Part shown: in pieces, positions 14,151 to 45,303 of the stretch | Numbering within the stretch: position 1 is the first letter of the stretch | Layout of the letters: each line of letters begins with the position of its first letter | Source: Phycisphaerae bacterium | GTDB taxonomy: Bacteria > Planctomycetota > Phycisphaerae > Phycisphaerales > SM1A02 | Assembly (NCBI GenBank): GCA_016873275.1 | Contig: VGXO01000003.1 | Span: 1 to 64,000, forward strand | DNA: 64,000 bases | Reading direction: 5' to 3' | Notes under the pieces: model-generated | Databases searched by the model: none | What the model saw: only the letters and a program-made list of their open reading frames with translations | What the model was told of the DNA's origin: nothing | Position numbers and translations under genes: made by a program

Positions 14151-14381
14151 TCAGAGGGTCGCGTCGGTGTACGGCAGGAGCGCCATGAAGCGGGCCCGCT
14201 TGATCGCCGTGGCGATCTGACGCTGCTCCCACGCCGACGCTTGGAGGCGACGCCGGCTGTAGATCTTCCCGTTGGGGGTCAGGAGGCGACGCAGGTCCTC
14301 GACGTTCTTGTAGTCGACGTACTTGCGTCCGCTGACGGCGTTGCTGTGGGGGATCTGCGGCGTGGTCTGGAACTGGGTCAT
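14151..14381 (-). CDS. rpsR: 30S ribosomal protein S18
   Basis: A 76-aa protein matching bacterial S18 in length and in its core: [19 protein letters not shown], then [20 protein letters not shown], the rRNA- and S6-facing helix. It binds the platform of the small subunit with S6. The usual N-terminal Arg/Cys segment is replaced by a neutral [20 protein letters not shown]. The gene stands alone, whereas rpsF-ssb-rpsR-rplI is the common order. ATG 14381 marks the start of conservation; upstream in-frame sequence is the repeat array. Confidence 0.96.
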
Positions 14382-14905
14382 GGGGTGGTCGCCTGGACGT
14401 AAACGACTAGAAGAGGATCGCCCCTTACCCGGGGGCGACCGCGACGAGCCGCGAAGCATAGCAGGAGCCATGACCGGACCGAAGGTCTCGGGAGGTCTCG
14501 GGAAGGTCTCGGACGAAGGTCTCGGACAGGCACGGCCTCCGGGACGGTCTCGGACAGGCACGGCCTCCGCGAACGCGGAGGTCTCGGACAGGCACCGTCG
14601 TCGGGGGGAAGGTCTCGGACAGGCACGGCCTCCGGGACGGTCTCGGACAGGCACGGCCTCCGCGAACGCGGAGGTCTCGGACAGGCACCGTCGTCGGGGG
14701 GAAGGTCTCGGGGGAAGGTCTCGGACAGGCACGGCCTCCGGAGGTCTCGGACAGGCACCGTCGTCGGGGAAGGTGTCGCGGGGGCACGGTCTCGGGGGCA
14801 CGGTCTCGGACAGGCACCGTCGTCGCCGTCGTCGAGATCCACTGCCCCGCGAACCGCCAAAGGGTGGTAGAAACCTTGACGTCGAAGTCTCGACGGAGGA
14901 ACCCC
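14382..14905. other. 524-bp intergenic region, mostly repeats
   Basis: Both neighbours are transcribed away from this gap, so their promoters should lie here. Apart from the 14-mer array at 14478-14831, the unique parts are about 95 bp upstream of rpsR and 75 bp before the chagasin-like gene. Open frames across the array exist on both strands only because the 93-bp period is a multiple of three. No clear -35/-10 pair is visible. Confidence 0.6.
14478..14831. repeat. Array of nine TCTCGGACAGGCAC repeats with a 93-bp tandem duplication
   Basis: Identical 14-mers TCTCGGACAGGCAC start at 14520, 14548, 14582, 14613, 14641, 14675, 14719, 14745 and 14804. Copies 1-3 and 4-6 form a tandem duplication with a period of 93 bp. 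Two following contexts alternate, GGCCTCCG and CGTCGTCGG. The third-copy junction CTCCGCGAACGCGGAG is a perfect hairpin (7-bp stem), present twice at a 93-bp distance. Shorter GGTCTCGG units precede the array. It fills the gap between rpsR and the chagasin-like gene. The complement GTGCCTGTCCGAGA recalls REP-type repeats; no transposase of that class is in the window. Confidence 0.9.
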
Positions 14906-15421
14906 ATGCCACGAGCCGCCCCGATCCGCCGAGTCCCCCGTTCCTGCCGCCATCTGGGTCCGGCACTCCTTCGAGCCGGGGCGTTCATGGCGGCTTCCCT
15001 GCTGCTCGGCGCCTGCGCGAGCCGCGGCGCCACGAGTGACGCCTCTCCCACCTCCTCCCCGCCTCGGACGGTGACGGTCCGACCGCAGGGCGACGCCGAG
15101 AGGGCGCCCGGACCGGTCATGGTCGGAGTCGGTGGGAGCGTCACGCTCGAGCTTCCGGTCACGACCGGCACGGGCTACCTCTGGGAGCTGACGCTCGACC
15201 CGATCGGCATCCTCGAGGGTGATCTCGCCGGGACGACCGTCCGCCAGGACGGCGCGATGCCGGGAGCCGTGACCGATCAGCGCTGGCTGTTGAACGCCGT
15301 CGCCCCGGGTCGGACCACGATCAGGGCGACCTACCGGCGTCCTTGGGAACGCAACGTCGAGCCCGCCCGGCGGTTCTCGGTCGAGGTCGAGGCCAAGGTC
15401 GAGGTCAAGGTCGGGGTCTAG
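14906..15421 (+). CDS. Chagasin-family (I42) cysteine-peptidase-inhibitor-like lipoprotein
   Basis: A 171-aa protein. A lipobox-like LLLGAC follows a hydrophobic stretch near residue 40, so it is probably lipidated and periplasmic. The mature part carries chagasin-like loops: TGTGYLWEL (family NPTTGY loop), the central [21 protein letters not shown] and the C-terminal YRRPWE loop. Family members block papain-like proteases by inserting these loops. GGAGGA lies 5 nt before ATG 14906. The last residues ([11 protein letters not shown]) come from a hexanucleotide repeat. No papain-like target is seen in the window. Confidence 0.8.
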
Positions 15422-15432
15422 GTCGGGGTCTA
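15379..15432 (+). repeat. Hexanucleotide tandem repeat spanning the stop codon
   Basis: Nine 6-bp units of the form GGTCRR/GGTCTA run from 15379 to 15432. They encode the alternating Val-Glu/Lys tail of the chagasin-like protein. The TAG stop at 15419-15421 arises at the junction of units 7 and 8. Gain or loss of a unit would add or remove two residues and keep the frame. Confidence 0.75.
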
Positions 15433-15628
15433 GATCAGGGGCGACTCGTTTCCTTGCTCGAAGTCCTGAGCGGCCGCTCGCCCACGGGGCGAAGCGCGAC
15501 ATGGTTGGACGGACGTCGCGGAACCAGGCCTCGGCGGCGGCGCGATCGTCGCGCCGGCGATCTAGCATGGACCGGGCGACCGGGTCTGTCGGCTCGGTGG
15601 ATGGATCCGCACGACGATCGACAGACCA

Positions 15629-16087
15629 ATGGCGAACTCCGATCCAAGGACGAGCGTGCAGGTCGTGTTCGTGGGGCGGCAGCCGCCCCCGCCGTCGATC
15701 GCGTCGCTCCTCCGCGCGGATCACGTCCGGCACGAGCGGCATCCGCTGCGGGCGCTCGCGGTGCTCGGGCAGTGCGAACTCGCGGCGAGGAGTGGCGGGA
15801 CATGGGGTGCTCCGCGCACCGAGCGGGTCGCGCTCGTCATCGGCGAAGAGCTCCCCGGGGTCGATCGTCTACGCGAGGCGGTGGAGCGGCACCTCCATGA
15901 CGTCGAGGTGTGGCTCGCCGTGGGAGGACCGCCTCGTCGGGTGACGACCGTTCCGGCGGACCAGCCCGCCCGACCCTCGGGCGCCTCCACGAGCGACGAC
16001 GCGACGCCGCGCCGGCTCGTCTCCGCGGAGGAGATCCGGATGCTGCTCGGCGACGCACGCACCCCGGACGCGGAGCCTCCGCGATGA
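15629..16087 (+). CDS. Small protein of unknown function coupled to a diguanylate cyclase
   Basis: A 152-aa protein. The first 95 residues look like a compact alpha/beta fold (VQVVFVGRQPP, RVALVIGEELPGVDRL, DVEVWLAVGG). The final 40 residues are a Pro/Ser/Thr linker ending with SAEEIRMLLGD. No family recognised. The stop overlaps the next ATG (ATGA at 16084-16087), so it is translated with the GGDEF protein and may be a partner or sensor for it. The coding call rests on codon bias and this coupling. Confidence 0.65.
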   Translation: MANSDPRTSVQVVFVGRQPPPPSIASLLRADHVRHERHPLRALAVLGQCELAARSGGTWGAPRTERVALVIGEELPGVDRLREAVERHLHDVEVWLAVGGPPRRVTTVPADQPARPSGASTSDDATPRRLVSAEEIRMLLGDARTPDAEPPR

Positions 16088-44691: not shown

Positions 44692-44855
44692 CCTCGTTCA
44701 TCGCTCGCCCTCACGCCTCTCGGACCGCGCGTGTCCTCGCCGCGACCCGAACCATCCACCATGCAGATCCGCCACTCCGTCCAACGCGCGATTGAGCCTC
44801 GCAACAGTTGATCGCGCAGTCGAACCACCACGGGCTCCATCGCGCCAACGGCGAC

Positions 44856-44946
44856 ACTCCTCCCCGGCGGAGCGCAGCGACTCAGGGGAGGTGCCGAGCG
44901 CAGCGAGGCGGAGGGGACGTGCGAACGCGGAAGGCGAACGCCGCGC
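44856..44946. repeat. 91-bp dispersed repeat, copy 1
   Basis: It begins ACTCCTCCCCGGCGGAGCGC, which contains a CTCCCCGGCGGAG hairpin-like core. It continues with CAGGGGAGGTGCCGAG, AGCGAGGCGGAGGGGACGT and ends near CGCCGCGC. A second copy lies 290 bp downstream with few differences. The two halves (GGAGCGCAGCGAC and GAGCGCAGCGAGGCGGAG) are related to each other, as in widespread GC-rich intergenic repeats. Confidence 0.75.
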
Positions 44947-45145
44947 GATCACGCCAACTCCGATTCGCTCGAAAGCGCGATGGTCGCCTCCCGACTCACG
45001 ACGGCCCCTCCGTCTCGCTCGCTGCGCTCGCGGGCCACCTCCCCGCGACTGCGTCGCGAGGAGTATTTTCATCCAACGCGCGATCGAACGACGCGACGCT
45101 CGTTCGCGCGAACAGACCACGCCACGCTCATTCGCGCGAACAGCG

Positions 45146-45236
45146 GAACTCCTCCCCGGCGGAGCGCAGCGACGCGGGGGAGGTGCCGAGCTCAGCGAGG
45201 CGGAGGGGACGTACGGACGCGGAAGGCGAACTCCGC
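45146..45236. repeat. 91-bp dispersed repeat, copy 2
   Basis: Same sequence as the copy at 44856 with a handful of substitutions (ACGCGGGGGAGG instead of ACTCAGGGGAGG, CGAGCTCAGCG instead of CGAGCGCAGCG). Its 3' part runs into the 47-bp tandem array. Confidence 0.75.
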
Positions 45237-45303
45237 GCTCAGCGAGGCGGAGGGGACGTACGAACGCAGGAGGCGAACTCCGCGCTCAGCGAGGCGGAGG
45301 GGA
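45189..45303. repeat. 47-bp tandem repeat, about 2.4 copies
   Basis: Units begin with CTCAGCGAGGCGGAGGGGA at 45189, 45236 and 45283. Units 1 and 2 differ at about three positions; the third is cut after about 20 bp. The unit equals the 3' half of the 91-bp repeat, so the array arose by local amplification of that half. The period is not a multiple of three, which argues against a coding role. Confidence 0.85.

Follow-up and report, generated by a model that had tools for sequence, protein, structure and literature searches.

The host gene rpsR (bS18; positions 14151-14381, minus strand; PF01084, E 6.8e-20) and a divergently oriented gene encoding a chagasin-like inhibitor (I42; 14906-15421, plus strand; PF09394, E 2.9e-14) are separated by a dense array of short direct repeats in the 64,000-nucleotide stretch of Phycisphaerae DNA analysed here, referred to below as the window. 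The question raised by this locus is what these repeats are and by what process they came to lie between these two genes.

The first-pass annotation had noted a 14-mer repeated exactly nine times, and this count holds: TCTCGGACAGGCAC is present in nine exact copies on the plus strand (at 14520, 14548, 14582, 14613, 14641, 14675, 14719, 14745 and 14804), compared with 1.04 +/- 0.95 copies in dinucleotide shuffles with two mismatches allowed, at least nine copies being reached in 0 of 100 shuffles. The exact repeat is longer, however, and consists of the 16-nt unit GGTCTCGGACAGGCAC, which spans 14518-14817 in nine copies and is made up of the flank GGTCTC, the 9-nt core GGACAGGCA and a terminal C. 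The units, all on the plus strand, lie at 14518-14533, 14546-14561, 14580-14595, 14611-14626, 14639-14654, 14673-14688, 14717-14732, 14743-14758 and 14802-14817. The annotated duplication of three copies as a 93-bp block was likewise borne out: an exact tandem duplication on the plus strand (14515-14700; copies 14515-14607 and 14608-14700, 100% identical) doubled units 1, 2 and 3 into units 4, 5 and 6. The whole array (14484-14830, plus strand) additionally contains five solo copies of the flank GGTCTCGG that lack a full core (at 14484, 14494, 14505, 14704 and 14788), although copy number inside arrays may be wrong in a fragmented metagenome-assembled genome (MAG) such as this one. Three of these solo copies (14484-14514, plus strand) stand 5' of the first full core, so that the 5' edge of the array reads GGTCTCGG-ga-GGTCTCGG-gaa-GGTCTCGG-acgaa-GGTCTCGGACAGGCAC, an outward duplication of the flank like that seen at the ends of the transposase genes described below.

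Within 14151-15742, every minus-strand frame and one of the plus-strand frames stay open across the array, and gene finders may therefore call spurious proteins or extend rpsR there. Other repeats in the window include a 12-bp GGTCAAGGTCGA repeat at 15379-15430, encoding an 11-residue tail that ends the chagasin-like gene, and the tandem repeats at 44780-45303 (a 47-bp unit repeated 2.5 times at 94%, a 28-bp unit, and a related copy some 290 bp away), which bear no relation to the core GGACAGGCA.

The core is widely dispersed in its own genome (3.23 Mb in 136 contigs), where 200 copies of GGACAGGCA compare with 11 of its reversed pattern and 67 copies of GGACAGGCAC with 3. The copies of GGACAGGCA form at least 20 arrays, each with flanks of its own: the 5' flank is GGTCTC in the window, GATCGT on contigs C57 and C76, GATCCG on C54, GATCCT on C93 and CGTGTCGA on C74. 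Across 60 arrays with at least three copies, in which cores have a median spacing of 33 nt, identity over the six bases preceding the core is 83% within an array and 49% between arrays of one genome. The first-pass annotation had taken absence of the 14-mer elsewhere in the genome and in relatives as a sign against its reading, which is not what we observed, and the genome-wide search that it suggested for the repeat and for Y1/REP-associated transposases detected both dispersed repeats and pieces of a RAYT-type transposase gene. Within the family the expansion is sporadic, with GGACAGGCA at background levels in two congeners (G001 and G002) and expanded in other genera.

Two of the loci in this genome, on C74 (L060, 1-1521) and C93 (L063, 3066-3481), are versions of a single locus that are about 97% identical and differ by a 44-bp array unit and by a 1.06-kb segment with a membrane-protein gene; the breakpoints of this segment adjoin GGACAGGCA flanks and a GGACACCCA site. 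Nine contigs (C45, C54, C63, C74, C76, C77, C93, C102 and C106) end inside or beside GGACAGGCA arrays, and the arrays are thus a likely cause of the fragmentation of this assembly.

The standard Y1_Tnp profile returned no match in this genome, as the assembly contains a divergent member of the family only in broken pieces; in other expanded genomes it detected long, partly matching proteins. An alignment of RAYT relatives located three pieces in the genome, all at contig ends. The end of C63 carries a RAYT N-terminus with the motif NHFH directly downstream of an array, and the ends of C8 and C97 carry two different C-terminal halves with the motif YVDLNE, that of C8 being followed, some 275 bp past the stop codon, by core copies in antisense orientation. 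No complete RAYT gene was found in the assembled contigs, and the two distinct C-terminal halves indicate that at least two copies of the gene are present in the genome and were broken in assembly.

Arrays and RAYT genes are strongly associated across the family. Both were present in 12 of 181 genomes, arrays only in 4, the gene only in 6 and neither in 159, so that RAYT genes occur in 12 of 16 array genomes and in 6 of 165 others (Fisher p 1.7e-11), in a sample of related species whose gene and array loci are not entirely independent of one another. Among genomes with at least three array pairs the gene was detected in 10 of 11, the exception being a genome that is 78% complete. The four array genomes outside the joint class lack a strong RAYT match, and several of the six with the gene and no GGACAGGCA pairs carry a different 9-mer beside it.

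The placement of cognate cores around 54 RAYT genes from several phyla outlined a consistent arrangement. Upstream copies are in sense orientation relative to the gene in 119 of 126 cases (7 antisense) and downstream copies are antisense in 102 of 105 (3 sense), most of them 55-140 bp ahead of the start codon or 180-260 bp beyond the stop codon. This orientation indicates that the core is the inverted end of a gene-bearing element, and in the window array such ends are clustered head to tail without the gene. The gene ends also show duplication of the sequence just outside the core, where the adjoining 8 nt recur within the preceding 40 nt at 35 of 89 ends, against a control value of 1.3; in 24 cases no core lies between the two occurrences. 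Exact 6-nt recurrence was likewise found at 29 ends on the outside, compared with 8 for the inside analogue.

Complementarity between the two sides of the core was also examined. A strong conserved-loop hairpin in every copy was considered and rejected after a first test gave a weak result (2.84 against 2.73), and little stem complementarity is seen in the window's own core copies. Later register tests returned a modest but consistent signal, with bases at equal distance across the core complementary at a rate of 0.375 in gene ends and 0.381 in array copies, against approximately 0.20-0.35 in other registers. This is secondary evidence; base composition may contribute to it, and it corresponds to a weak hairpin at best.

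Beyond the family, 84,980 species genomes were scanned, and the 79 best-scoring of at least 529 RAYT loci were retained, including loci from Planctomycetota, Gammaproteobacteria, Verrucomicrobia and Holophagae MAGs. When 8-mers lying no more than 700 bp from the gene were compared, with no motif assumed, with those 2.5-5 kb away, the enriched ones were GACACCCA (40 loci near versus 9 far), GGACAGGC (21 versus 5) and GACATCCA (20 versus 6), all of them versions of one core, GGACA-NN-CA. The resulting gene-specific 9-mers include GGACAGGCA, GGACACCCA, GGACACGCA, GGACATCCA and AGACACCCA, and different genes of a single genome may carry different ones. In genome G021, GGACACGCA occurs 9-10 times beside two of the genes and GGACAGGCA 5 times beside two others, and in G023 one gene is accompanied by GGACACACA (7 copies) and another by GGACAGGCA (9 copies). 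Several genes seemingly devoid of a core proved to have AGACACCCA, GGACACACC or GGCCAGACC; for some RAYT genes, a search of the flanks yielded no recognisable core. The two variable bases of the core cluster on the protein tree, requiring 14 changes compared with 22.7 under shuffling (0 of 200 shuffles). Among the matches listed in a literature search for the motif strings were primers and human genes.

In a separate genome (G032; loci L170 and L171), a perfect 8-bp stem (AAAAGTAG / CTACTTTT) encloses GGACAGGCA as its 9-nt loop, and one of these sites lies close to a canonical Y1 transposase that is shorter (267 aa), pairing a hairpin form of the core with a different transposase type.

The RAYT proteins share an architecture of about 340 aa, in which an insert separates the NHxH motif from YVDLN[P/E] and the C-terminal region is long. 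The NHxH motif is present in all 91 genes (NHYH in 13, NHLH in 42) and YVDLNP in 64 of 87, with a median HUH-Y distance of 113 residues and a median length of 344 aa. These values match the published description of TnpAY1 subclass 2.3 (HUH-Y distance 110, length 325 aa, an NHYH-type HUH motif and YVDLNP; PMC6006769), an assignment made by description and not by the authors' profiles. Y1_Tnp (PF01797) matched 23 of 30 homologues at E <= 0.01, and the match to NF047646 fell below its cut-off. The predicted structure (pLDDT 82, pTM 0.82) has as its top fold match Escherichia coli TnpA-REP bound to REP DNA (4er8, probability 1.00), followed by the IS608 and ISDra2 transposases (2vju and 2xm3 among the top matches). 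According to the superfamily survey, REP-like sequences were found for subclasses 2.1 and 2.3 by "neither automatic nor manual searches" (PMC6006769). Its automatic search targeted a GT[AG]G foot and a stem-loop (PMC6006769), which would not detect the cores described here. The gene-specific 9-mers contradict this published negative for subclass 2.3, which is not a defining trait of the subclass.

A comparison of GG-type and CC-type genes provided a lead on how the variable bases might be read. The most informative alignment column lies two residues before a conserved Trp and contrasts His with Arg; the second most informative lies seven residues after the same Trp. His at the first of these columns goes with G at core position 6 and Arg with C or T, although the CG and CA types contain exceptions. 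This contrast appears three times among the gamma-proteobacterial genes of the tree, in what look like independent instances (L242, L234 and L232/L239, each against CC-type relatives). The column corresponds to residue 154 of alignment A2 (L258 numbering), a candidate specificity residue, and E. coli TnpA-REP contacts GTAG via residues in its W94-R104 stretch (PMC6006769). We hypothesise from these alignments that the His/Arg residue is a specificity determinant, with relatedness among the sequences as a confounding factor.

The dispersed arrays, the association of core and transposase at the level of genomes and of genes, the inverted ends, the cores that track the protein tree and the outward duplication 5' of the core are seen directly in these genomes, and the window array probably consists of clustered solo ends from a RAYT-type (TnpA-REP, HUH/Y1) element, with the 9-nt core GGACAGGCA as its unit, spread by a transposase of the subclass 2.3 type. 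The unit recognised would be the 9-nt core between short, weakly complementary and site-specific flanks. By analogy with TnpA-REP and IS608, the transposase may read the core in single-stranded DNA, cut at the junction between the 5' flank (X) and the core, and join strands at that same point. Repeated events, or strand slippage from such nicks, could then add flank-core units beside existing ones. Such a course of events would account for a 9-mer common to all arrays with an X particular to each, for the solo copies of X on the 5' side and for the variation in unit number. A broader reading, which we put forward tentatively and regard as somewhat less than evenly likely, is that the RAYTs of subclass 2.3 are active enzymes that follow a protein-DNA specificity code. 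Each would read the 9-nt GGACA-NN-CA core proper to it, exposed as a loop with variable flanks on either side, and the two variable bases would be read partly by residues around the W-E motif; each strand transfer would copy the local flank, so that arrays would grow at new sites with only 9 nt of their own.

Several of the same observations could also be expected of a passive minisatellite, in which replication slippage and unequal exchange would multiply a GC-rich unit without any transposase. The exact 93-bp tandem duplication, the partial units and the difference in unit number between the two locus versions on C74 and C93 all point in this direction, and the growth step itself may well be slippage. 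An enzyme-free mechanism of this kind is thus possible for the growth of an array. It does not extend to the spread of the core, since slippage alone cannot place one 9-mer at 20 or more unrelated sites with differing flanks, and it offers no reason for that core to co-occur with a RAYT gene and flank it in fixed orientation in many phyla. As a full account the minisatellite is refuted by these data, and we regard it as unlikely overall.

It is also rather improbable, in our estimation, that the arrays are functional rather than by-products, bound by a domesticated host RAYT for chromosome maintenance or gene control. TnpA-REP genes have been described near housekeeping genes (PMC8266576), and the core remains intact here while its flanks drift, both of which would suit such a role. 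The distribution of the gene does not: RAYT genes are patchy within genera and are present as many divergent copies per genome, a pattern that looks mobile or selfish.

The position of the array between divergent genes, together with the tandem arrangement of conserved sites, invites the alternative that it is a host regulatory array, whose units would be operators bound by a protein that controls rpsR or the chagasin-like gene. The first-pass annotation had in fact placed the array in the only possible promoter region of rpsR, a claim that does not stand. The array begins approximately 100 bp upstream of the rpsR start codon, and the intervening sequence contains a block (approximately 14433-14462, minus strand) that is kept in a congener lacking the array and is the likely position of the rpsR promoter. 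The rpsR gene of that congener does without the array next to a different neighbour, the two loci differing in one neighbouring gene with no clean empty site seen. Because of the array-less congener and of the conserved block between array and rpsR, the array is unlikely to owe its existence to a role in the expression of rpsR, although an effect on rpsR is possible. Searches within the array identified no sigma-70 promoter or terminator, and the other arrays of the genome adjoin unrelated sequence. Host regulation is therefore very improbable as the origin of the array.

A transcript with repeated hairpins, also put forward in the first-pass annotation, can be given very little credence. It drew on the 16-bp palindrome CTCCGCGAACGCGGAG, which does occur at two places (14565-14580 and 14658-14673), as annotated; since both lie in the 93-bp duplicated block, they reflect one event instead of two, and the hairpin is not a general feature of the units. 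The array folds no better than shuffled sequence as RNA (z -0.75 on the plus strand and +1.77 on the minus strand) or as DNA (z 0.88), and no Rfam family was found within the window. An assembly artefact, for which the many arrays at contig ends in a 136-contig assembly might speak, is the least credible explanation, given that the window array lies in the interior of a 124-kb contig and that at least 10 further genomes, some of them contiguous, have arrays of the same kind.

With the array read as a cluster of solo transposon ends, subclass 2.3, which the superfamily survey had left without cognate DNA, gains candidate sites in several phyla, and the enzyme-site pairs constitute a natural series for studying site choice by HUH nucleases. 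The arrays also provide a case of a REP-like repeat that is hardly palindromic, and they would explain contig breaks and spurious open reading frames in planctomycete MAGs.

Among known systems, the IS200/IS605 elements (IS608, ISDra2) share the HUH/Y1 fold with the proteins described here. Their ends are recognised on one strand. The elements studied here differ in having inverted 9-nt ends without the typical subterminal hairpins, a Y motif of the form YxDLN[P/E] in place of YxxxQ, and a much longer protein of about 344 aa.

REP/REPtron systems with a TnpA-REP (RAYT) have been described for subclasses 2.2, 2.4, 2.5, 2.7 and 2.8 (PMC6006769, PMC8266576). As in REPtrons, a Y1/HUH transposase gene is flanked by a short sequence that is also dispersed through the genome, the cognate sequence co-evolves with the protein, and the best solved fold match is 4er8. 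Unlike REPtrons, the present elements have a 9-nt core with neither GT[AG]G nor a conserved palindrome, copies away from the gene that are tandem direct repeats with site-specific flanks, and a protein approximately twice as long. The REP lead of the first-pass annotation was hence sound insofar as the core is dispersed in many genome copies, tied to a RAYT-type HUH transposase and found flanking its gene. The array is nevertheless REP-like and not a classical REP: the aligned copies lack a GT[AG]G or GGAG tetranucleotide at a stem-loop foot and have GGACAnnCA as their core, their hairpin is very weak, and the repeats are direct. A classical REP or BIME was rejected on the same basis, there being no GTAG and no palindromic unit, and the repeats being tandem and direct where REPs would form inverted pairs.

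Among published concepts the TIRtron comes closest: according to the accessible part of its description, inverted ends that are not REPs share GGGGWSAS and surround a RAYT-like gene (TIRYT; PMC3733652). This motif resembles GGGACAGG, and that text has TIR families in dimers or clusters and published TIRYTs mostly in the shorter subclass 2.1; a gene-specific 9-mer code, long direct arrays and flank duplication are not among the features that it describes (PMC3733652). In protein length, NHxH and YVDLNP motifs, HUH-Y distance, long C-terminus and presence in Alteromonadales, the proteins analysed here agree with published subclass 2.3 (PMC6006769). They differ from it in having cognate 9-mers, located in inverted ends and in arrays, and in occurring also in Planctomycetota, Verrucomicrobia and Holophagae MAGs.
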